Part shown: one piece after another, positions 32,524 through 50,740 of the stretch | How positions within the stretch are numbered: position 1 is the first letter of the stretch | Layout: each line of letters begins with the position of its first letter | Assembly (NCBI RefSeq): GCF_014518425.1 | Contig: NZ_JACVCU010000007.1 | Coordinates: 62,001 to 126,000, forward strand | Length of the DNA stretch: 64,000 bases | Reading direction: 5' to 3' | From: Terrabacter sp. MAHUQ-38 | GTDB lineage: Bacteria; Actinomycetota; Actinomycetes; Actinomycetales; Dermatophilaceae | Position numbers and translations under genes: made by a program | The notes under the pieces: generated by a model | Told to the model about the DNA's origin: nothing | The model's input: the letters and a program-made list of their open reading frames with translations, nothing else | Database searches by the model: none

Positions 32524-32596
32524 GCTGGCGTGGCGCAATCGGTAGCGCACCTGTCTTGTAAACAGGTGGTTGAGAGTTCGAGTCTCTTCGCCAGCT
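32524..32596 (+). tRNA. tRNA-Thr, anticodon TGT
   Basis: The acceptor stem GCTGGCG/CGCCAGC (32524-32530 with 32589-32595) is complete. The anticodon arm CTGTCTTGTAAACAG puts TGT in the loop, and GAGAGTTCGAGTCTC is the T-arm. CCA is not encoded. The 3' half is the probable integration target for the island that starts next to it. Confidence 0.93.
32567..32596 (+). other. presumptive attL in the 3' half of tRNA-Thr
   Basis: Islands of this type integrate into the 3' part of tRNAs, regenerating the tRNA. The 3' half GGTTGAGAGTTCGAGTCTCT through the end is the likely crossover region. The matching repeat was not located. Confidence 0.4.
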
Positions 32597-32774
32597 CTGT
32601 GCTTGAGGGGCCGGATAGTGCCCCTGACCTGCGGTTTTGCAGTCATGCGGACAGGTTTGGCTGGTGGTCACGAGTGGACTCCAGATGACTCAAACGTGCA
32701 TCGCTATCGCACGCAGATAGCACGAATCGCACGACGTGGTCGGCGTGCAATGGCGCCCGGCGAGGGCGACTCCC

Positions 32775-33905
32775 ATGGTCGGTAGGGCGAACCGGCGCGG
32801 GTTCGGCTACCTGCGCAAGCTCCCTTCAAAGCGTTGGCAGGCGAGCTACGTCGGGCCAGATCTGGCCCGGTATGGCGCGCCATCGACGTTCGCCGCGAAG
32901 GTCGACGCCGAGGCGTGGCTGGCCTCAGAGCGCGCGCTCATCTCCGCGGGCAACTGGTCGCCGCCGGCTCTGCGCCGGCCAGTCGATGCGGACTCTGTGA
33001 CGTTCGAGGTCTATGCGCGCACCTGGCTGCGCGACAGGAGGCTCAAGCCGCGGACGCGCGAGGGCTACGAGCACTTGTTGCAGCGCTTCCTCTTGGATGA
33101 CTTCGGTGCCGTGCCGCTCGCCAAGATCACGCCGGCCACGGTGCGCGCTTGGTGGGGACAGTTGAACGAAGCCACGCCCACGGCCAACGCGCGCGCCTAT
33201 GCGCTGCTGAAGGCGATCATGAACACGGCGGTGGCCGATGAGGAGATCGTGGCCAACCCATGCCGCATCAGATCCGCGGCGTCGGTTCCGCGGGCCAGGG
33301 AGGTCCGTCCTGCCTCAGTAGAGGAGCTCTCAGTGATCGTGGCAAACCTGCCCGAGAACCGGCGGGCCATCGCGCTGCTGTGCTCCTGGTGCGCCATGCG
33401 CATCGGCGAGGTGCTCGAACTGCGCCGCAAGGACGTCGATCTCGTCAGGAAGGTTGTGCGAGTGCAGCGCTCGGTGGCTTGGGTCGCCGGGAAGCCGGTC
33501 GTGGGGTCTCCGAAGTCGGCAGCAGGACGGCGAACGGTGTCCATCCCCCCACACGTCGTGCCGGCGCTCAAGAGGCATCTGGACGAGTTCGCGTCGCGCG
33601 GCCAGGAGTCGCTTCTGTTCCCAGCGATGGACGGGACGAGCCATCTGCAACCCACGGTGTTCCACGACGCCTTCAGTAAGGCGCGCGCCGCCGCGGGCCG
33701 TCAGGACCTTCGGGTGCACGACCTGCGCCACACGGGCGCGACCCTGGCGGCGATGGCGGGTGCGACACTGGCTGAGCTGCAGCAGCGACCTGGCCACTCA
33801 TCGGTTGGTGCGGCCCTGCGCTACCAGCACGCCGCCGCGGGCCGGGACACCGCCATCGCCGAGGCGCTGAGTCGGATGGCCGAGGACTCATCGAAGGACG
33901 AGTGA
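32775..33905 (+). CDS. tyrosine-type site-specific integrase
   Basis: A recombinase of ~376 residues. The N-terminal arm-binding (AP2-like, RKLPSKRWQASYVG) and SAM-like core-binding domains (FEVYARTWLRDRRLKPRT) precede the catalytic domain. The Arg is in MRIGEVLELRRKD, the His-x-x-Arg is HDLRHTGAT, and the GH-x-Tyr end is PGHSSVGAALRYQH. It would catalyse insertion and excision at the adjoining tRNA-Thr. ATG 32775 is preferred over an upstream in-frame ATG because the conserved domain begins right after it. It converges on the excisionase-like gene. Confidence 0.92.
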   Translation: MVGRANRRGFGYLRKLPSKRWQASYVGPDLARYGAPSTFAAKVDAEAWLASERALISAGNWSPPALRRPVDADSVTFEVYARTWLRDRRLKPRTREGYEHLLQRFLLDDFGAVPLAKITPATVRAWWGQLNEATPTANARAYALLKAIMNTAVADEEIVANPCRIRSAASVPRAREVRPASVEELSVIVANLPENRRAIALLCSWCAMRIGEVLELRRKDVDLVRKVVRVQRSVAWVAGKPVVGSPKSAAGRRTVSIPPHVVPALKRHLDEFASRGQESLLFPAMDGTSHLQPTVFHDAFSKARAAAGRQDLRVHDLRHTGATLAAMAGATLAELQQRPGHSSVGAALRYQHAAAGRDTAIAEALSRMAEDSSKDE

Positions 33906-34983: not shown

Positions 34984-35631
34984 TCAGGCGCTCCGGAGAA
35001 AGGTCAGCACTGCCAGGACGCGGCGGTTGCTCTCCGACGACTCGTCGAGGCCCAGCTTCGTGAAGATCTGGCGCACATGCGCCTCGACCGTCCGGTCGGT
35101 GATGAACAACCGTCTGCTGATGCCTTGGTTCGTCAGACCCTCGGCGACAAGAGCAAGGACCTCGCGCTCTCGCTCGCTGAGTGCCTTGATTGGGTCATCG
35201 GTCCGGCGTTTGCGGAGGAGTCGCGCCACGATGGTGGGGTCCACGACGGTCTCGGCCTCGGCCACCCGCCGGAGGCTGTCGATGAGGACGTCGCCCGAGA
35301 AGATCCGCTCCTTGAGGATGTAGCCGATGCCTTCGGGCTGGTCTTGAATGAGACGCAACGCGTAGGCCGACTCGATGTAGTGCGACAGCACCAGCACCCC
35401 GATGTCGGGGAACTCGGACCGGATCGCGGCCGCTGCGACGATGCCCTCGTCGGTGTGCGTCGGAGGCATTCGGATGTCGACGACGCACACATCGGGCCGG
35501 TAGACGCGGACGTGGTTCATGAGCGTGGTGGCGTCGCCTGCCTGGCCCACGACGTCGACTCCACCGGACGTGAGCAGCGCAACGACGCCCTCGCGGGTCA
35601 GCAGCGTGTCGTCGGCTACAACGGCTCGCAT
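34984..35631 (-). CDS. NarL/LuxR-type response regulator
   Basis: A 215-residue regulator. Receiver: acidic pair VVADDTLLTREG, phospho-acceptor Asp in CVVDIRMPPTHTDEG, Ser/Lys residues in VLVLSHYIES and YILKERI. The C-terminal LuxR helix-turn-helix is LSEREREVLALVAEGL followed by SRRLFITDRTVEAHVRQIF. The MPPTHTDEG loop marks the actinobacterial NarL subclass. It is the output partner of the adjacent kinase at 35662-37443, 30 bp upstream in the same direction. Confidence 0.93.
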   Translation of the reverse strand: MRAVVADDTLLTREGVVALLTSGGVDVVGQAGDATTLMNHVRVYRPDVCVVDIRMPPTHTDEGIVAAAAIRSEFPDIGVLVLSHYIESAYALRLIQDQPEGIGYILKERIFSGDVLIDSLRRVAEAETVVDPTIVARLLRKRRTDDPIKALSEREREVLALVAEGLTNQGISRRLFITDRTVEAHVRQIFTKLGLDESSESNRRVLAVLTFLRSA

Positions 35632-35661
35632 GGGGCCTCCCCCCTGGTGAGACGCATTGGC

Positions 35662-37443
35662 TCAGTCGCTTCCTGTGCCCAGGTCACCACGATGCACCGT
35701 CCCCGGGGATGACTCACGGCTGACCGCCGGCGCCGCGAGCGGCAGCTCGAGCTCGATCCGGAGGCGATTGTCGTCGGGCAAGACCTCGAGGCGTCCGCCG
35801 AGCGCGTTGACGCGGTCCTGAAGGCCGGCGAGGCCGACGCCCGCCGCGGCGACGTCCACGCGGACTCGTAGGGCGTCACCGTCGTACACGGCGTACACGG
35901 TGGTGGGTCCCGCGGCCGCCGCCTTCGCCACGAGCAGGTATGCCGTCGTCTCCACCACCGCGGGAAACCGTCGCTCCGGAGCGTCGATGACACGGACGTC
36001 CATGGTCTCGCTCAAGGCTGCGCACGCGCCGGCGAACCCCTCCGTGAGCAGGACGACCGGATGCAGTCCGTTGGCCAGCTCCCTGAGGTCCTCGACCGCG
36101 GCCTGGATCTCCGCCCCCGCGTCGTCGACCTCGGCGTGGTCTTCTCCAGTCGTCGTCCTCAGCAGGCGCAGACCCAGCAGCAGGCCGACGAGGCGCTGTT
36201 GGGCGCCGTCGTGCAGGTCGCGCTCGAGCCGGCGCCGTTCGCGGTCCCCCGCCTCGATGATGCGCACGCGAGAATCGGCCAGAGCGCGCAGCTGGGCGAG
36301 TCCCTCGGCGCGCAGCCGCTCGTTCTCGAGGCCCAACCGGGCCGCTCTGACGACCTCACGCACGGCATCCGGGCTGTCGAACAGGCCGAGGCGGTGCACC
36401 AGGACCGCGATCTCCTGCCCGTCCTCGATGAGCCGGCTCGTCGCTCGCCCGGGCCGGTGCGTCACGTCCACCGACGCGAGGTCGACGTCACGATAGGTTC
36501 CGTCGACGGGATAGGCCACCTGGAGCGACGGGTCGTGCAGCCACTCGGCCAGCGCCTCGCGCATGCCGCCTGCCGCCGCCTCCCGGTGCAGGTCGACGAC
36601 GAGGCCGGTGACGCTGCGCCGCATGGCTCGCGCTCGCAGCAGGCTGAAGGCGACGGCGAGGGCCAGTGCGGCCAGACCCGCGAGCTGCACCCACCACGGG
36701 CCCTGGTCGGTCATCGACCCACCCACGAAGCCGCGGTCGAGGCTCAGGACCAGCTGCGCCGAGACGGCTACCAGGTAGACGAGGCCGATCATCCAGACGG
36801 CGCCGCGAGCCCGGCGAGACGCCGGGCTCATCCGTGCCAGGCCGACGAGGAGGACCAGCATCGTGATGGCGGCCCACGCGAGGGCGGCCGTCATCGCCGG
36901 TCGCGACCACGTCGCCGCCACGTCTGGGTCGTCCCGCGCCAGAAGAAGATTCGTCGGGCAGTCCGAGCACCCCTGGGCCTGATGGTCGGAGAACAGGGCG
37001 GGCACGAGTCCCAGTGCCCCGACGAACACGAGTGCCCCCGCAATGAGCAGATAGCGCTCCACAAGCCCATCGACACGCCCGGATGGGAAGGCAAGGACCA
37101 CCCACGTCGCGGCGACGGGCACGGCAATCGTGAAAAGCAGACCTATGGAAAACACTGCAGCAGACGGGGCTCCAGCGGCTGCGGCCCCTGGGATGTCCCA
37201 CTCGGTGGTGAGCAGGAAGCTGGCGACGAGGATCAGCAGCCAACCGAACCGGTTCGTCGCTCTCGCCAGCCGGTGCACGATCCCGACGCAGGCAAGCAGT
37301 GCCACGGTGCACAGCAGAGCCACCTCCGACAGGATCGACTCGCCCATGTCGGAGAAGCCCGGCGACGCGGCGACAACGCGCATCGTCAGCCAGACGATGC
37401 TCGCCTCGAGAGCCAAGACCACGACAGACCACGTGACCTGCAT
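35662..37443 (-). CDS. NarL-type sensor histidine kinase
   Basis: A membrane sensor kinase of about 593 residues. At least seven hydrophobic segments lie in residues 1-290, with AGLAALALAVAFSLLRAR the last before a GAF-like region. The HisKA_3 dimerisation box has phospho-acceptor His411 in ERRRLERDLHDGAQQRLVG. The ATPase end is degenerate but recognisable (GVGLAGLQDRVNALGGRLEV). It is paired with the LuxR-type regulator downstream. ATG 37443 is chosen since its membrane helix follows at once; ATG 37527 is possible and would overlap a small ORF. Confidence 0.88.
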   Translation of the reverse strand: MQVTWSVVVLALEASIVWLTMRVVAASPGFSDMGESILSEVALLCTVALLACVGIVHRLARATNRFGWLLILVASFLLTTEWDIPGAAAAGAPSAAVFSIGLLFTIAVPVAATWVVLAFPSGRVDGLVERYLLIAGALVFVGALGLVPALFSDHQAQGCSDCPTNLLLARDDPDVAATWSRPAMTAALAWAAITMLVLLVGLARMSPASRRARGAVWMIGLVYLVAVSAQLVLSLDRGFVGGSMTDQGPWWVQLAGLAALALAVAFSLLRARAMRRSVTGLVVDLHREAAAGGMREALAEWLHDPSLQVAYPVDGTYRDVDLASVDVTHRPGRATSRLIEDGQEIAVLVHRLGLFDSPDAVREVVRAARLGLENERLRAEGLAQLRALADSRVRIIEAGDRERRRLERDLHDGAQQRLVGLLLGLRLLRTTTGEDHAEVDDAGAEIQAAVEDLRELANGLHPVVLLTEGFAGACAALSETMDVRVIDAPERRFPAVVETTAYLLVAKAAAAGPTTVYAVYDGDALRVRVDVAAAGVGLAGLQDRVNALGGRLEVLPDDNRLRIELELPLAAPAVSRESSPGTVHRGDLGTGSD

Positions 37444-37610: not shown

Positions 37611-37852
37611 CGTGGTGCCCCGCGCCTCGACGCGCCCCCGTATCGCCACGGCAGAGCTCGCAGCCCTTCTGCGCCCAAAGCCTGACGAAAGCACTCGCAC
37701 CCTCTGCCCAGCCCTCATGAGACCCAGAATCCACCCAAGGCGCCTTCCGTGACTCAGTGTTGGCACTGATTCGCTTGACCGATTGGCCGGCGACACTGGC
37801 GTCAAAGCGCGAGACTATTAGAGCCTCGAGGCACCGAAGGGAAGTGCCGGCC
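37611..37852. other. divergent promoter region between the two sensor systems
   Basis: This non-coding stretch separates the minus-strand kinase/regulator pair (and the Cys-rich peptide) from the plus-strand binding-protein operon, and presumably contains promoters of both. No operator motif is certain. Confidence 0.4.
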
Positions 37853-39706
37853 ATGACCCGAAACACGAGGTCGAGCGTGGCGCTCATGGCGGCCGTCGTA
37901 CTGGGCCTGGCCGGTTGCGCCTCCTCAACACCCAACCGGGCCGGAGGCCGAGGCCTCCAAGAGGTCACCGTACTGGAGATCGCTCAGCTCAACGATGTTG
38001 CGCCCACGCAAGTCCGGGCGTACGCCGCAGAGGTGGAGAAGCAGTCGCACGGGTCCCTGAGCCTCGACTTCAACGACAACTGGCACAAGGGCGAGATCGA
38101 TTTCGAGAAGCACACCCTCGAAGACGTGACGAGCGGGCGGATGCCGGGTGCCTGGGTCGGCGTCCGGGCGCTCGACCTGATCGGGGTGACCTCGTTCCAA
38201 CCGCTCGTGGCGCCGCTGCTCGTCGACAGCCAAGCGATGCAGGAGCGCATCTTCTCGGAAGGGATCCCGCTCGAGATGGCCGGCGGCCTCGAAGGGCACG
38301 GCCTGGTGGCGGTCGCCGTCCTGCCGGGTCCCATGCGCAAGGTGCTAGGAGTGCGCAAACCGTTCCGAGAGCGCGCCGACTTCCGCGACAGCGACCTGGG
38401 GATCCAGGGCGGTGAGATACCGGAGGCCACGGCGATTGCCCTCGGGGCGACCTTCACACGGATGCCCTCCGGCGCGAGTCTCGCCGGGGCCGACGCGTAC
38501 GAGCAGCAGGTCGAGAACGTCTTCGGCACCTTCTACGGACTCGAGGCGAAGTACGTCACCGCGAACGTCAACCTCTGGCCGCAAGTCATGGTGGTGGTCC
38601 TCAACGAAGCGTCCTACCGTGCGCTGACCGACGCCCAGCGGGAGGTCCTGCGCACGGCCGCAACGAACTCGGTGCCAGCGGCCCTCGCGGCGACTCGGCG
38701 CCAGGAAGACGCCGCCGTCGCCAAGCTGTGTGAACAGCAGGTCGCCTTTCCGCTCTCTTCGGATCTGCAGCTCGCTGCCCTGCGCCACATCGTCCAAACG
38801 GTCTACGACGAGATCGCCGACAACCCGGACAATGCCCGGATGCTCGACCGGCTCACCGTTCTCAGGGCCGCCGTCGCCGCGCCGCCGGACGTCTCCACTT
38901 GTCCCTCGCCGCGGCCGGATGACGGCCGCGGGTCGTTCCCGGAGGGAACCTACGACATGGTGCTCGCGAACGATCTGAGGTCACAGTGCACGGATGGCTC
39001 GGCGCAGGGCACACCGGGGCGACAGTCCTGGTTCTCGCTCGAGGTGCGTGGCGACCGAGTCACCATGCGTCAACGTATCGACAGCCAGACTGCGCCCGAG
39101 CAGGTCGGACACGACATGGTTTACCGCACCATGCGCGACCAGGTTGAGGTCGGCAACCTCACCGCGAGGTGGTCCTTCGACGGGACCGCCCTGCGGCTCA
39201 GCGACATGAGCGGCGGCTCGTGCGGCGACGCTGTCATCTGGACGACCAACCCGTGGGTCCTGCGCTCGGGCCCGGTTCACCCGGTCGCGTCGGTGGTTCC
39301 GGAAGGCACGTACGAGACGGTGCTCTCGACCGACGACCGGCACCTCTGCGACGGCCAGCCGGAGGAGGTATACCTCAACCCGTGGCCCGAGCCCCCGCCG
39401 ACCTGGTACGTGACGTTCACGCTCGAGGGCGGAGCGGTCAGGGAGTACGAGAGCGAGGTCAGCCCTGCGGCGAGTGGCATCTTGGGATGGGTGGGCAGTT
39501 ACCGGGTGTACGGCAACACGTTCGAGCTGACCGACCTCACGCTCGTACAACACATGCCGCCTGTGCCGGCCCACCGCGACCTCTTGACCGCGACCTTCAC
39601 GTTCGACGGCACGACCCTGACGCTCACACCCGTGGGCTCCTGGCCGTGTGAGAGCCGGGTCCTGTGGACCCTGCATCCGTGGACCTTGACGAGGAAGGCG
39701 CCATGA
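37853..39706 (+). CDS. TRAP-type (DctP-like) binding lipoprotein with two tandem C-terminal domains
   Basis: A 617-residue lipoprotein. The signal ends in lipobox LGLAGC (Cys ~21). Residues ~35-340 follow a TRAP solute-binding (DctP) pattern, including VTSGRMPGAWVGVRALD, GVTSFQPLVAPLLV and NVNLWPQVMVVVLNEASY. Two homologous ~120-residue domains follow at ~361-480 and ~481-615, each with PEGTYxxVL...C...FDGT and a WxxxPW ending. No TRAP permease genes are nearby, so a sensory role is more likely than transport. It overlaps the receiver gene downstream by ATGA. Confidence 0.8.
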   Translation: MTRNTRSSVALMAAVVLGLAGCASSTPNRAGGRGLQEVTVLEIAQLNDVAPTQVRAYAAEVEKQSHGSLSLDFNDNWHKGEIDFEKHTLEDVTSGRMPGAWVGVRALDLIGVTSFQPLVAPLLVDSQAMQERIFSEGIPLEMAGGLEGHGLVAVAVLPGPMRKVLGVRKPFRERADFRDSDLGIQGGEIPEATAIALGATFTRMPSGASLAGADAYEQQVENVFGTFYGLEAKYVTANVNLWPQVMVVVLNEASYRALTDAQREVLRTAATNSVPAALAATRRQEDAAVAKLCEQQVAFPLSSDLQLAALRHIVQTVYDEIADNPDNARMLDRLTVLRAAVAAPPDVSTCPSPRPDDGRGSFPEGTYDMVLANDLRSQCTDGSAQGTPGRQSWFSLEVRGDRVTMRQRIDSQTAPEQVGHDMVYRTMRDQVEVGNLTARWSFDGTALRLSDMSGGSCGDAVIWTTNPWVLRSGPVHPVASVVPEGTYETVLSTDDRHLCDGQPEEVYLNPWPEPPPTWYVTFTLEGGAVREYESEVSPAASGILGWVGSYRVYGNTFELTDLTLVQHMPPVPAHRDLLTATFTFDGTTLTLTPVGSWPCESRVLWTLHPWTLTRKAP

Positions 39707-40056
39707 CACGGACACTGGTGATCATCGACGACCACGCCGGCTTCAGAGCCTTCGCACGAGCGCTTCTCGAGGCGGAGGGCTACGACGTCGTCGGCGAGGC
39801 CGCGGACGGCTCCTCCGGTACCGAGCTGGTATGTCGCCTCCTTCCCGACGTCGTGTTGCTTGACGTCGTCCTGCCCGACGTCGACGGGTTCGCCGTGACC
39901 CAGCGGATCGCGGACAAAGCGCCTCGCTGTGCGGTGGTGCTGACCTCCACTCGCGGTCGCAGTTCCTACGGCGCGCGTATCGCGGCGAGTCCGGCGCGCG
40001 GATTCGTCGCCAAGAGCGAGCTCAGCGGGTCTGCGCTGGGCCGGTTGACCGGGTGA
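39703..40056 (+). CDS. receiver-only response regulator
   Basis: A 117-residue CheY-like protein consisting only of a receiver domain: acidic pair VIIDDHAGFRAF, phospho-acceptor Asp in VVLLDVVLPDV, Thr/Ser in VVLTSTRG and Lys in GFVAKSEL. There is no DNA-binding domain. ATG 39703 overlaps the preceding stop (ATGA), so it is co-translated with the binding lipoprotein, and the degenerate kinase begins three bases after its stop. It may act by binding protein partners. Confidence 0.9.
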   Translation: MTRTLVIIDDHAGFRAFARALLEAEGYDVVGEAADGSSGTELVCRLLPDVVLLDVVLPDVDGFAVTQRIADKAPRCAVVLTSTRGRSSYGARIAASPARGFVAKSELSGSALGRLTG

Positions 40057-40059
40057 CCC

Positions 40060-41598
40060 ATGGTCGTGATCGGGTTGCTCCATGCAATCGACCTGCTGGT
40101 TGGGGTCGTCGTGATCGCTGCCGGCCTCGCGTCGTTGCGTTTCGGCAGGGTCGCCTGGCTGATGCTCCTCGTCGGGGCGACCTGGCTGGTCGGCAGCGTC
40201 CTCACCGCAGCCGTCTTCCTCCACCGTGGTCCGCTCGTGCACCTGCACCTCACCTACCCCACCGGGCACTCCAGGCGCCGCTACGTCACGGTCGTCATCG
40301 GAGCGGCATACCTGTTGGCCGTTTTCGAGGCGTTCGTGCCCACTGCTGCACTCACCCTCGTACTCGCGCTCATGGTCGCCGCAGCGGCGATCGACGTCTT
40401 CGTGCGCACCAGCGGCCCCGCCCGCAAGGCGGGACGGCCGGCCCTGTGGGCCGCCCTCGGGTTCTCCGCCGTGCTCGTGACGAGCGCGCTCAACCAACTG
40501 CTTGCCTGGGACATCGTGGTGCCCATCCTGCTGGCATACGACGCGGTTGTCGCCGGCGCCGCGGTCGTGCTCGCGGCCGACCTGCGGTGGGGTCGCTGGA
40601 CCGAGTCGACGCTCAGTGACCTCGTCACCGACCTCGGGGAAACCTCCGACACGACCGGGCTGACCGGACGGCTGCAGCGAGCCCTGGGCGACCCCAGCCT
40701 CACCGTCGGCTTCTGGATCCCGGAGCGGGCGGCATACGCCGATGATCAGGGCGAGCCGGTCGAGCTTCCGGCGGAAGGCGGTCATCGCACGGCCACCCAC
40801 ATCGACGACGGGGGCCGGCCAATCGCCGTGCTGGTCCACGACCGGGCGCTGCTCGAGGACCCACGGCTGGTGAGCGGAGTCGCGACGGCCGCGAGGCTTG
40901 CGATGACGAACGCGCAGATGCTCACCGACATCCGGTCGCGCGTGGACGAGCTCACTGAGTCGAGGCGACGCATCGTCGCGGCTGTCGGCGATGAGCGGGC
41001 GCGGATCGCTGACGAGCTCGCCGACGGCGCGCAACGACGGCTCACCCGCGTCTCCGACCTTCTAGACCACGTCGCGATGGCAGGCCTCTCGGGTGACCGG
41101 AACCTCACCATGGTGCGAACGGAAGTCGTACGGGCGCAGGAGGACCTCACGACGTTCGTCCATGGAGTCCGCCCGGAGGCCCTCGTGGAGGGTGGCCTCG
41201 GCTCGGCCGTGCGTGACATGGCGGGACACTTCCCGTTCCGGCTGGAGGTGCGCGTCGATGCGGGACGGCTTCCCGACGCGCTCGAAGGGGCGTTGCTCTT
41301 CTTCTGCTCCGAGGCGGTGACCAACGTGGCGAAGCACGCTCACGCCACCCGGTGTCGCGTGACCATCACCAGCGAGCCGCAGCTGATCCTGGCCGTCGTC
41401 GATGATGACGGGGTAGGTGGGGCGGATCCATCCGGTTCAGGCCTGCGCGGCCTGACCGACCGGATCGAGACGATGGGCGGCCGGTTCGTCGTGACGCGCC
41501 CGCGCGAAGGTGGCACACGCCTTGAGGCGAGCATCCCGCGATCCGATCATCCTGTCGTACCGACCAATCGCGACGAGGTTACGAGCGAGTCCACATGA
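40060..41598 (+). CDS. histidine-kinase-like protein with Ala in place of the phospho-acceptor His
   Basis: A 512-residue membrane protein: about six N-terminal helices (residues 1-170), a GAF-like linker, a HisKA_3-like box (ERARIADELADGAQRRL) and an HATPase domain (CSEAVTNVAKHAHATRC, DDDGVGGADPSGSGLRGL, RPREGGTRLEASIP). In kinases of this class the box reads ELHDGxxQRL; here the His position is Ala321. The ATPase motifs remain, so it may act as an ATP-dependent switch, an allosteric partner of the first kinase, or a phosphatase, but not as an ordinary autokinase. Confidence 0.85.
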   Translation: MVVIGLLHAIDLLVGVVVIAAGLASLRFGRVAWLMLLVGATWLVGSVLTAAVFLHRGPLVHLHLTYPTGHSRRRYVTVVIGAAYLLAVFEAFVPTAALTLVLALMVAAAAIDVFVRTSGPARKAGRPALWAALGFSAVLVTSALNQLLAWDIVVPILLAYDAVVAGAAVVLAADLRWGRWTESTLSDLVTDLGETSDTTGLTGRLQRALGDPSLTVGFWIPERAAYADDQGEPVELPAEGGHRTATHIDDGGRPIAVLVHDRALLEDPRLVSGVATAARLAMTNAQMLTDIRSRVDELTESRRRIVAAVGDERARIADELADGAQRRLTRVSDLLDHVAMAGLSGDRNLTMVRTEVVRAQEDLTTFVHGVRPEALVEGGLGSAVRDMAGHFPFRLEVRVDAGRLPDALEGALLFFCSEAVTNVAKHAHATRCRVTITSEPQLILAVVDDDGVGGADPSGSGLRGLTDRIETMGGRFVVTRPREGGTRLEASIPRSDHPVVPTNRDEVTSEST

Positions 41599-43682: not shown

Positions 43683-44783
43683 ATGGGCGTGATCATCGGG
43701 ATGGACCCGCACAAGCGCTCGGCCACGATCGAGGTCATCGATCAGACCGGTCGAGTGCTCGACGTGCGACGGTTCGACACGGACAAGGCCGGCTACGCGG
43801 AGATGCTGGCCGCTGGCCGTGCCCACGGTCAGGTGGGTGAGCGGGTGTGGGCCGTCGAGGGCTGCAACGGCATCGGCCGGCACATCGCGCACCGGCTCGT
43901 GCACGACGGTGAGCGTGTGGTCGACGTGCCGCCGAAGTTGTCGGCGCAGGTGCGGATCTTCGCCACCGGCATCGGTCGCAAGACCGACCCGGTCGACGCC
44001 CACTCGGTCGCCCTCGCCGCGCTGTACGCCCCGGCCGAGCCCGGCCTGCGGCCCGTGCTGGTAGAGGACGACCTGGTCGTGATGGGATTAATGGTTGACC
44101 GTCGCGACGAGCTAGGCCGGGCGCGCACGCAGACGGTCAACCGGCTGCATCGGCTTCTGCTGGAACTGATTCCGGGCGGCGCGAAGACATTCCTGTCCGC
44201 GCCGCAGGCCCGCGCGCTGGTCGCAACGGTCAAGCCGCGTGACCTCGTGGGCAAGACCAGGCGCCGGTTCGTCGTCGAGCTCATCACCGAGCTTGAGGGC
44301 ATCGACCGCAAGATCAAGACGGCCGACAAAGAGCTCGCCGCCCTCGTCCAGGAGCGCGGCTCGAGTCTGCTGGAGCTGACCGGGATCGGCCCGACCGGTG
44401 CGGCGCGGCTGCTGGCCGACGTCGGGGACATCCACCGGTTCCGCGACAAGGACCGCTTCGCCTCGTGGAACGGGACCGCGCCCCTGGACGCTTCTTCCGG
44501 CGCGCAGCAACGACACAGGCTGTCCCGGGCCGGCAACCGTCGGGTCAACCGGACGCTGCACATCATGGCCGTCGTGCAGCTGCGTAACCCGACACCTGGC
44601 CGGGAGTTCTACAACGCCCGCAAGGCCGGCGGCACGCCCTCGCTGATGGCGATGCGGTCGCTGAAGAGGCGCCTGTCGAACGTCGTGTACGCCCGCATGG
44701 TCGAGGACCAGAACCGTCGCGACCGCGCACGTCAGTCGGGTGAGGTGACGGGACCCGGGAGGGCACGGGGGCAACGACTCTGA
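43683..44783 (+). CDS. IS110-family transposase
   Basis: A 366-residue DEDD transposase. The N-terminal RuvC-like domain begins MGVIIGMDPHKRSATIEV (first Asp), with VWAVEGCNGIGRHIA (Glu) and KTDPVDAHSVALA (DxxD). A helical middle follows, and the C-terminal transposase_20 domain has ELTGIGPTGAARLLADVG and AGNRRVNRTLHIMAVVQLRN. The length and domains are complete, so this copy may still be active. The leader carries a bridge-RNA-like sequence. Confidence 0.93.
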   Translation: MGVIIGMDPHKRSATIEVIDQTGRVLDVRRFDTDKAGYAEMLAAGRAHGQVGERVWAVEGCNGIGRHIAHRLVHDGERVVDVPPKLSAQVRIFATGIGRKTDPVDAHSVALAALYAPAEPGLRPVLVEDDLVVMGLMVDRRDELGRARTQTVNRLHRLLLELIPGGAKTFLSAPQARALVATVKPRDLVGKTRRRFVVELITELEGIDRKIKTADKELAALVQERGSSLLELTGIGPTGAARLLADVGDIHRFRDKDRFASWNGTAPLDASSGAQQRHRLSRAGNRRVNRTLHIMAVVQLRNPTPGREFYNARKAGGTPSLMAMRSLKRRLSNVVYARMVEDQNRRDRARQSGEVTGPGRARGQRL

Positions 44784-45081: not shown

Positions 45082-45675
45082 ATGATCCGATCACGCGGCA
45101 TGGCCCTCGCGGCGGCGCTTGCGGCCGGCTTGACCCTTCCGGCGCTCTCGCTGGCGGCCCCGGCTTCCGCGGCCCCCGCCGGGAACGGCCCATGGCACAC
45201 CGTCTACGACGAACCGTTCACCGACACCATCCAGGACTTCTGTGACGTCCCCGGTCTGACGGTGACTTACACGTTCGGCGGAGTCAACCAGATCCGGACT
45301 ACCCGCACCCTCGGCGTTGACGGTTTCCCTTATGAGACCTACTTCTACACCGCCAAGGAGTTGTATACCAACGTCGCCACCGGGGAGACAGTCACTGATG
45401 ACGGCGGGTACATGAGCCAGGACATCCGCCTCATTGACAACGGGGACGGCACGTTCACCCGTTACGTCTCCAACAAGGGCCAACACGTCCTGTACTCCGA
45501 CGATGGCGTCGTGCTTGCCCGCGCAGCCGGCATATTTAGCTACAACGTGGTCTACAACTACGCAGGCACCCCCTCCGACCCGTCCGACGACTTCAAGGTA
45601 GGACGCCCCTTCAACTTCAAGGACAAGGGCCTCAACATCGACTACTGCGCCGTCATCGTCGGCGCGATCGGCTGA
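45082..45675 (+). CDS. secreted protein of unknown function
   Basis: A 197-residue protein with a clear Sec signal (ALAAALAAGLTLPALSLAAPASA, cut near AAPAGN). The mature part is beta-rich (LTVTYTFGGVNQIRTTRT, GYMSQDIRLIDNGDGTF) with two Cys, at mature-region positions early and near the C-terminus (NIDYCAVIVG), which may form a disulfide. The NGDGTF loop is reminiscent of extracellular Ca-binding or adhesion-type beta proteins. No enzyme family is recognised. ATG 45082 has AGGAGGTGGA upstream. Confidence 0.7.
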   Translation: MIRSRGMALAAALAAGLTLPALSLAAPASAAPAGNGPWHTVYDEPFTDTIQDFCDVPGLTVTYTFGGVNQIRTTRTLGVDGFPYETYFYTAKELYTNVATGETVTDDGGYMSQDIRLIDNGDGTFTRYVSNKGQHVLYSDDGVVLARAAGIFSYNVVYNYAGTPSDPSDDFKVGRPFNFKDKGLNIDYCAVIVGAIG

Positions 45676-50342: not shown

Positions 50343-50740
50343 GTGAGACAGCAGACATCGACTCGCGTTGTGATCGGGATGGACCCGAACAAGCGCTCGG
50401 TGACCGTCGAGGTGATGCGGCCCCGATGAGTCGGTCGCTACCGGTGGTCGATACGAGCCTGACCGGGCGGGCTATGGGGCCATGCTCGAGGTGGCGCGGA
50501 CGTGGCCCGAGCGGGTGTGGGCGGTCGAGGGTGGCAACGGCATCGGTCGTCACGTCGCCTTGCGCCTGCTCGTTGATGGGGAGCAGATCGTCGACGTCCC
50601 ACCTCGGCTGTCCGCCGGGTTCGGATGTTCGCGACCCGGCAGGGCCTAAGTCGGATGCGACGGATGCGCACTCGATCGCGCTGGTCGGGACCAGGATGGC
50701 CGGGTTGCTCCGGTGGTCAACGACGACCAGCTAGCGACGA
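50343..50740 (+). pseudogene. decayed IS110-family transposase
   Basis: GTG 50343 opens VVIGMDPNKRSVTVEVM and hits a stop at 50429. In another frame it resumes VWAVEGGNGIGRHVALRLL and then a DAHSIALVG-like segment, with several stops. The copy covers only about the first 125 of ~366 residues and has at least two frameshifts. Its leader is homologous to that of the intact copy at 43683, so both came from related elements. Confidence 0.75.

Follow-up and report, generated by a model that had tools for sequence, protein, structure and literature searches.

Complementary motif loss in two linked membrane kinases points to a probable split histidine kinase beside a DctP-like lipoprotein in Terrabacter

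Can two sensor kinases, each of which has lost what the other retains, work as one? This question is raised by a five-gene locus in a stretch of 64,000 nucleotides from the soil bacterium Terrabacter sp. MAHUQ-38 (contig NZ_JACVCU010000007.1, positions 62,001 to 126,000 of the forward strand; genome of 5.16 Mb in 18 contigs), which we call the window and whose coordinates are used throughout. Three genes on the plus strand (37853-41598) encode a DctP-like lipoprotein (P0001), a receiver-only protein (P0002) and a kinase-like membrane protein (P0003, the A-kinase). A divergent pair on the minus strand (34984-37443) encodes a second kinase (P0005, the B-kinase) and a LuxR/NarL-type response regulator (P0004). 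The original prediction described the run as three tightly coupled genes, for a TRAP-binding lipoprotein, a protein made of a receiver only, and a kinase-like membrane protein without the acceptor His. This description holds, as do the coordinates: genes 1 and 2 overlap in an ATGA (39703-39706), and a spacer of 3 bases (40057-40059) separates genes 2 and 3. The prediction went on to have the His-less kinase modulate a complete, intact kinase at 35662-37443, and this part is not supported. The neighbour is missing its N and G1 boxes and gave no HATPase match in Pfam at E up to 1; neither protein looks complete, and their likely relation is complementation.

The A-kinase P0003 (40060-41598, plus strand; five hydrophobic segments) keeps the motifs of the catalytic and ATP-binding (CA) domain and has lost the His. 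Alignment and motif table put Ala321 (codon 41020-41022, plus strand) at the place of the phospho-acceptor. Its N box (SEAVTNVAKHA region, residues 416-427; 41305-41340, plus strand) has E418, N422, K425 and H426 invariant and its G1 box (VDDDGVGGA, residues 447-455; 41398-41424, plus strand) D449, D450, G451, G453 and G454, both in alignment A3, and the CA domain aligns with the solved CA domains of DosT and DesK. The B-kinase P0005 (35662-37443, minus strand; seven hydrophobic segments) has the reverse equipment, a HisKA_3 domain whose His box, ERDLHDGAQQRL, contains the acceptor His, and a CA domain stripped of its motifs. The proposed phospho-acceptor, His411 (codon 36211-36213, minus strand), is invariant in alignment A1. 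What is left of the CA domain (residues 469-570; 35734-36039, minus strand) has, by alignment and by the blocks of a structure model, neither N box nor ATP lid; deletions run through both, and the G1 box is gone. The D-x-x-x-Q motif, which has a role in dephosphorylating the partner regulator, is retained in the window's P0005. Neither P0003 nor P0005 has the canonical HisKA_3 layout, where a single protein carries the His box and the N/G boxes. Both match models of the HisKA_3/HATPase type and no CheA model; the pair may function in the manner of CheA3/CheA4 but does not belong to the CheA type. Judged by their sequences, the two appear to be complementary halves, each without what the other has.

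This division of motifs is conserved. With P0003 and DctP as baits, an A-kinase, a B-kinase and a DctP gene were found standing together at 21 loci, from 16 genomes of actinobacteria. Their A-kinases have the N-box Asn in 21/21, the G1 Asp in 21/21 and the acceptor His in 2/21. B-kinases have the acceptor His in 23/23 and the N-box Asn in 0/22 scorable cases; the 23 include those of the partial loci L068 and L098 and the broken B of L096, whose His was counted and which was left out of the N-box count and the tree. Five partial loci (L066, L068, L097, L098 and L105) stand outside the 21. Among 21 reference kinases, 10 picked by similarity to P0003 and 11 from the window's own genome, His and Asn are both present in 21/21. 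Catalytic domain and phospho-acceptor His reside on separate proteins in the window pair and in 19 of the 21 loci, a pattern that can be read off the alignments directly. The residue that replaces the His of A varies (Ala 7, Arg 5, Gln 3, Gly 2, Asp 1, Thr 1), as would be expected of a freed site and not of a new acceptor. In the window's own genome the HisKA_3 model, which favours His carriers, gave 12 matches (one below cut-off), all with the His and 11 with the N box, the exception being P0005; the A profile matched 12 places, where only P0003 is without the His. By a published count, 1556/42417 HisKA proteins (3.66%) have no HATPase domain (PMC3591291). Our loci, 19 of 21 of which include a His-less partner, depart widely from this yardstick, although they are related by descent and not independent.

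The linkage of the parts is conserved as well. A P0003 scan of genome contigs gave five loci from Terrabacter and Humibacillus (family Intrasporangiaceae), the closest named ones, with all five genes in the same order as in the window; the three-gene order and the divergent kinase/LuxR pair occur together in 5/5 of these P0003-baited loci. Because the five loci keep this order and the ratio of nonsynonymous to synonymous substitution (dN/dS) is below 0.51 for all five genes in every pair computed, the locus is more than a chance assembly. Survey counts include the own genome where sampled, the samples overlap, and several of the genomes are drafts. The P0001 search matched 3/248 genomes of the order; the P0003 search matched 15/149 genomes of the family at E 1e-30, many of these matches being ordinary kinases, and gave no match on plasmids at E 1e-30. 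A search with the DctP alignment matched 5/394 genomes of the class, 11/186 of the family, 10/396 of the phylum, and 3/27 and 1/3 of two further classes. Beyond the own genome, the nine phylum matches comprise two with both kinases (G869, G810), two partial ones (G1016, G1043) and five on a kinase-free stretch; six DctP loci without kinases on the fetched stretch (L099-L104) were not counted as the module.

As DctP was the bait for loci beyond the P0003-baited five, its presence in the 21 is partly by construction. The LuxR regulator is found in 19/21 loci, the remaining two (L065, L095) stopping at a contig end. A lone receiver occurs in 15/21; L067 and L071-L075 showed none, although a frame that bears a receiver, left unclassed, lies at the contig end of L073. 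In L035, L036, L069, L070 and L093 the order is shuffled, yet the parts stay linked: the regulator lies behind A in L035, and in L036, L069 and L093 the two kinase genes are oriented opposite to that of the lipoprotein. Terrabacter sp. Root181 carries two copies of the module, L013 and L015. An apparent frameshift in their A genes was rejected, as both breaks fall at an N in the Root181 assembly and were read as gaps; the downstream open frame alone was used.

We consider it likely, at a probability of roughly 0.7, that the locus encodes a conserved natural membrane-bound split histidine kinase, with A and B halves, a LuxR output and a DctP sensor. The two membrane proteins would probably share the halves of one sensor kinase and function together only. 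Because both keep a region resembling the dimerization and histidine phosphotransfer (DHp) domain, we infer an A/B heterodimer in the membrane, to which A would bring the ATP-binding catalytic domain and B the phospho-acceptor His. Within it, A would phosphorylate His411 of B in trans, the simplest working circuit given complementary motifs, one locus and one regulator. Phosphate would then flow from B to the probable output P0004 (34984-35631, minus strand), a LuxR/NarL-type regulator with Response_reg and GerE domains that is 87-95% identical across five close loci. With its D-x-x-x-Q motif kept, B may also dephosphorylate P0004; where one half is a phosphatase, a switch-like output is predicted for split kinases (PMC3591291). 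The receiver-only protein P0002 (39703-40056, plus strand; ATG at 39703, stop at 40054-40056) consists of a receiver domain (E 4.1e-20) with recognisable acidic pair, Asp, Thr and Lys, and no output domain; it probably draws phosphate from the same His of B, as a sink, feedback or connector. At the head of the circuit the DctP-like lipoprotein, repurposed from a binding protein of tripartite ATP-independent periplasmic (TRAP) transporters, would bind the signal outside and set the state of the A/B pair.

The alternative that survives best, unlikely as we hold it, makes A an allosteric pseudokinase of the DivL kind; B would receive its phosphate from another complete kinase, or serve mainly as phosphatase of the regulator. 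Precedents are DivL with CckA and ChrS, a pseudokinase for which the paralogue HrrS phosphorylates the regulator (PMC9491836), and the window's own genome does contain further HisKA_3 kinases. The His of A is replaced in 19/21, yet A keeps its ATP motifs in 21/21, and a partner with a purely allosteric role could do without these; both kinases share one locus even in distant genomes.

A second alternative concerns the lipoprotein, P0001 (37853-39706, plus strand), our proposed ligand receptor. Its lipobox is LAGC with Cys22, its DctP domain is well above threshold (Pfam PF03480, E 1.6e-17, 64.2 bits against a curated cut-off of 23.4; NCBIfam TRAP_S1, E 9.7e-18), and it aligns with solved DctP chains. 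TRAP binding proteins normally serve transport, and P0001 might belong to a TRAP transporter that is regulated by the kinases and has its membrane subunits encoded at another place; DctM does have two matches in the window's genome, one each on contigs C11 and C12. We regard this as improbable. DctM, the subunit searched (DctQ was not), had no match in 13 of the 16 carrier genomes tested, a set without G869, G810, G1016 and G1043; in the other 3/16 its matches are on other contigs. The Arg of a KIRVQ stretch, placed by alignment with 4mhf, we take to be the conserved ligand Arg of transport-type TRAP binding proteins. At this place P0001 has Gly, and a residue other than Arg stands there in 16 of the 21 DctPs of the module that were examined (the partial locus L066 supplied one of them; L096 and the tandem arrays left out); Arg is kept in L036, L067, L070, L071 and L072, and in 6/6 DctPs without kinases on their stretch. 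As the ligand Arg is mostly lost and DctM is rare and on other contigs, the module's DctP lipoprotein has probably left transport, and P0001 would probably detect a signal at the cell surface. The dedicated sensing unit of the original prediction, with a lipoprotein that has no transporter, is upheld to this extent, and no TRAP pair was found near the module in the 16 carrier genomes tested.

Further features of these lipoproteins are less easily placed. Two C-terminal beta-rich repeats of P0001 (residues 365-472 and 485-613; 38945-39691, plus strand) are predicted as strands, mostly at a predicted local distance difference test (pLDDT) score of 50-77; the model as a whole is poor (mean pLDDT 42.4) and gave no match to known folds at E 0.001. 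A 371-residue frame next to A in L014 (11633-12748 of that locus) has a beta repeat in common with the lipoprotein (about 27% identity) and no Pfam match. DctP-like frames stand in tandem in some distant genomes, five in L097, four in L098 and two in L105, perhaps as a multiplied receptor set; L097 also has a regulator, L098 a B-kinase and a regulator, and L105 neither. When ten proteins from four kinase-free loci were scanned, the DctP gene of L101, with no kinase on its stretch, proved to adjoin a DctQ-DctM fusion. On plasmids, DctP was matched in a single record, from Miltoncostaea oceani; it is flanked there by F420 genes and an annotated TRAP permease, and the two stretches viewed have no kinase.

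It is very unlikely that the CA domain of B, though diverged, still binds ATP and lets B autophosphorylate, which would restore an intact pair plus modulator. In a model built from six sequences (mean pLDDT 44.5), reliable only at residues of about 471-570 (block means 72-89), the remnant does form a small alpha/beta sandwich, albeit without a lid, and 5/23 B-kinases have Asp in the G1 column. Fold matches of the model include histidine kinases (CpxA, DesK), phytochromes and ChpT at ranks 10, 16 and 39, and with residues 17-467 below pLDDT 50 and low template modelling (TM) scores they are a hint only. The N-box Asn, however, is missing in 22/22 scorable B-kinases, deletions pass through N box and lid, P0005 gave no HATPase match, and the proportion of nonsynonymous differences (pN) of the CA remnant is above that of the DHp part in 5/5 pairs.

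All five genes are under purifying selection. Compared with the window, dN/dS is 0.23-0.30 for A (3 pairs) and 0.26-0.34 for B (5 pairs), and, at five pairs each, 0.42-0.50 for the lipoprotein, 0.09-0.17 for the receiver and 0.09-0.20 for the regulator. Decay of two paralogous kinases whose function was lost by drift is barely credible: both kinases are degenerate and the DctP and B frames of draft L096 are broken, but dN/dS of 0.23-0.34 for both kinases and a complementary pattern in 19 of 21 loci speak against it. In L096 itself, A is complete with its His beside the two broken frames, by decay or by sequencing error.

Several observations weigh against a split kinase as proposed. The CA domain of P0003 falls below the Pfam cut-offs (HATPase_c, 23.8 bits against 26.4; HATPase_c_2, 24.1 against 27.4). 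A keeps its His in L095 and L096, both from one draft genome, G810 (5% contamination). Asp stands in the G1 column of 5/23 B remnants, and L094, L095 and L098 read DDG; in these three, B could retain residual nucleotide binding. In the kinase tree, calculated with trait columns removed, B lies on one side of a branch of modest support (61/87), and A falls into two parts in the best tree, a single A clade not being rejected (approximately unbiased test, p 0.418). Distances in the A and B trees are correlated (r 0.96, 20 loci; 0/5000 permutations as high), a point in favour of the pair, but this may reflect inheritance as one locus and not contact. Finally, a survey baited with P0003 or DctP misses kinase pairs without DctP, which are uncounted here.

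The loci also hint at how a split kinase may have arisen. The A-kinase of L095 keeps the His, and its sister row in the tree, L094 (99/97), has lost it. This contrast, together with the difference in the replacing residue among loci, suggests that B lost ATP binding first and that the His of A was lost late and repeatedly, although under unordered parsimony two changes are enough. The A-kinases of L095 and L096 look like intermediates, a state that rests on one draft genome. More broadly, it is a plausible but evenly balanced proposal that Actinomycetota have obligate heterodimeric receptor kinases, derived from a duplicated homodimeric kinase by stepwise complementary loss (ATP binding of B first, the His of A later, perhaps several times), with DctP lipoproteins as exchangeable detectors, in places in tandem.

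Parts of this arrangement have counterparts elsewhere. In Mycobacterium tuberculosis, Rv0600c and Rv0601c are an ATP-binding half and a His half, and we know of no DctP lipoprotein with them. In Bacillus subtilis, DctB is a DctP-type protein. The former, like A and B, are a pair of kinase genes from an actinobacterium, and both cooperate with a single regulator, TcrA (PMC9274095). The DctB/DctS/DctA system likewise uses a binding protein as co-receptor of a sensor kinase, but with one kinase, a transporter as sensor part and no split kinase (PMC6978683). Closest in logic are CheA3 and CheA4 of Rhodobacter sphaeroides, neither of which autophosphorylates alone; their mixture phosphorylates CheA3, which feeds the regulator (PMC3591291). 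There too the catalytic domain is on one protein and the phospho-acceptor on the other, but that pair belongs to a cytoplasmic chemotaxis cluster and lacks whole domains, whereas the HisKA_3-type pair is in the membrane, keeps the general layout, has lost motifs and lies beside a lipoprotein. Hik36-Hik43 of Synechocystis is also a kinase divided over two genes, whose halves contact each other and the regulator in two-hybrid assays; unlike our module, it is a split CheA homologue with a histidine phosphotransfer (HPt) domain, its genes lie apart, and no binding protein is mentioned with it (PMC7656254). ChpT of Caulobacter combines a His-bearing four-helix bundle with a Bergerat-like domain; the ATP lid of this domain has been replaced, and its crystals showed no bound ATP (PMC3433190). 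The B-kinase as proposed would resemble it in its His-bearing bundle and lid-less CA-like fold, but ChpT is a phosphotransferase in a multi-step relay and B a membrane protein proposed to receive phosphate from a CA domain. DivL and ChrS (PMC9491836 for the latter) have no catalytic function of their own and influence a second kinase; their partner is a complete kinase, and here neither protein looks complete.

Split kinases of the CheA type and binding-protein co-receptors are already known; among the open-licence papers listed we found no description of the combination here, a membrane HisKA_3 pair with complementary motif loss and a DctP lipoprotein. The halves of EnvZ, separated in the laboratory, are still active (cited in PMC3591291); nature seems to have fixed such a design in a conserved receptor family, with loci resembling steps towards it. 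If this is true, the intermediate loci would allow a direct test of how a homodimer became an obligate heterodimer. The family would offer a test case, provided by nature, of the reasons for which split kinases evolve, be it for a switch-like response, for two-input logic or by a neutral ratchet, and also for the trans reaction in HisKA_3 kinases and the change from transport protein to receptor. It is a warning, too, that such pairs are easily misread as one intact and one dead kinase.

The gap of 409 bases between the lipoprotein and P0005 genes contains a conserved element, CTCAGNGTTNGCACTGATTCG (37753-37773, plus strand), present in 6/6 close loci; the own genome has a single copy of its 15-base core, and control of this very locus would suit such a distribution. 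We also looked for target genes among common neighbours, and set this approach aside as too thin, with one secreted protein in 3/6 loci (window, L011, L013). In the window this is a 197-residue protein (45082-45675) with a signal-peptide-like start and no Pfam match, and relatives of it are encoded close to the regulator gene of L011 (4074-4958) and of L013 (3711-4490); it may be a target of the module. Just ahead of the module, a tRNA-Thr (TGT) is followed by a phage-type integrase gene (32736-33905; whole span 32524-33905), possibly the remnant of an integrated element. A genomic island carrying the module was considered but is not shown by the sequence: no direct repeat of the tRNA was found in 32400-64000 (seed 14, length 20), 5/7 relatives scanned have no tRNA, and L013 and L014 have a tRNA-Ser. 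Flanking genes are common to L012 and L015, and to L013 and L014. Further downstream, the window holds an IS110-family transposase gene (43683-44783) and part of a second, diverged copy at about 50365-50615, the two forming direct repeats of 72-83% identity.

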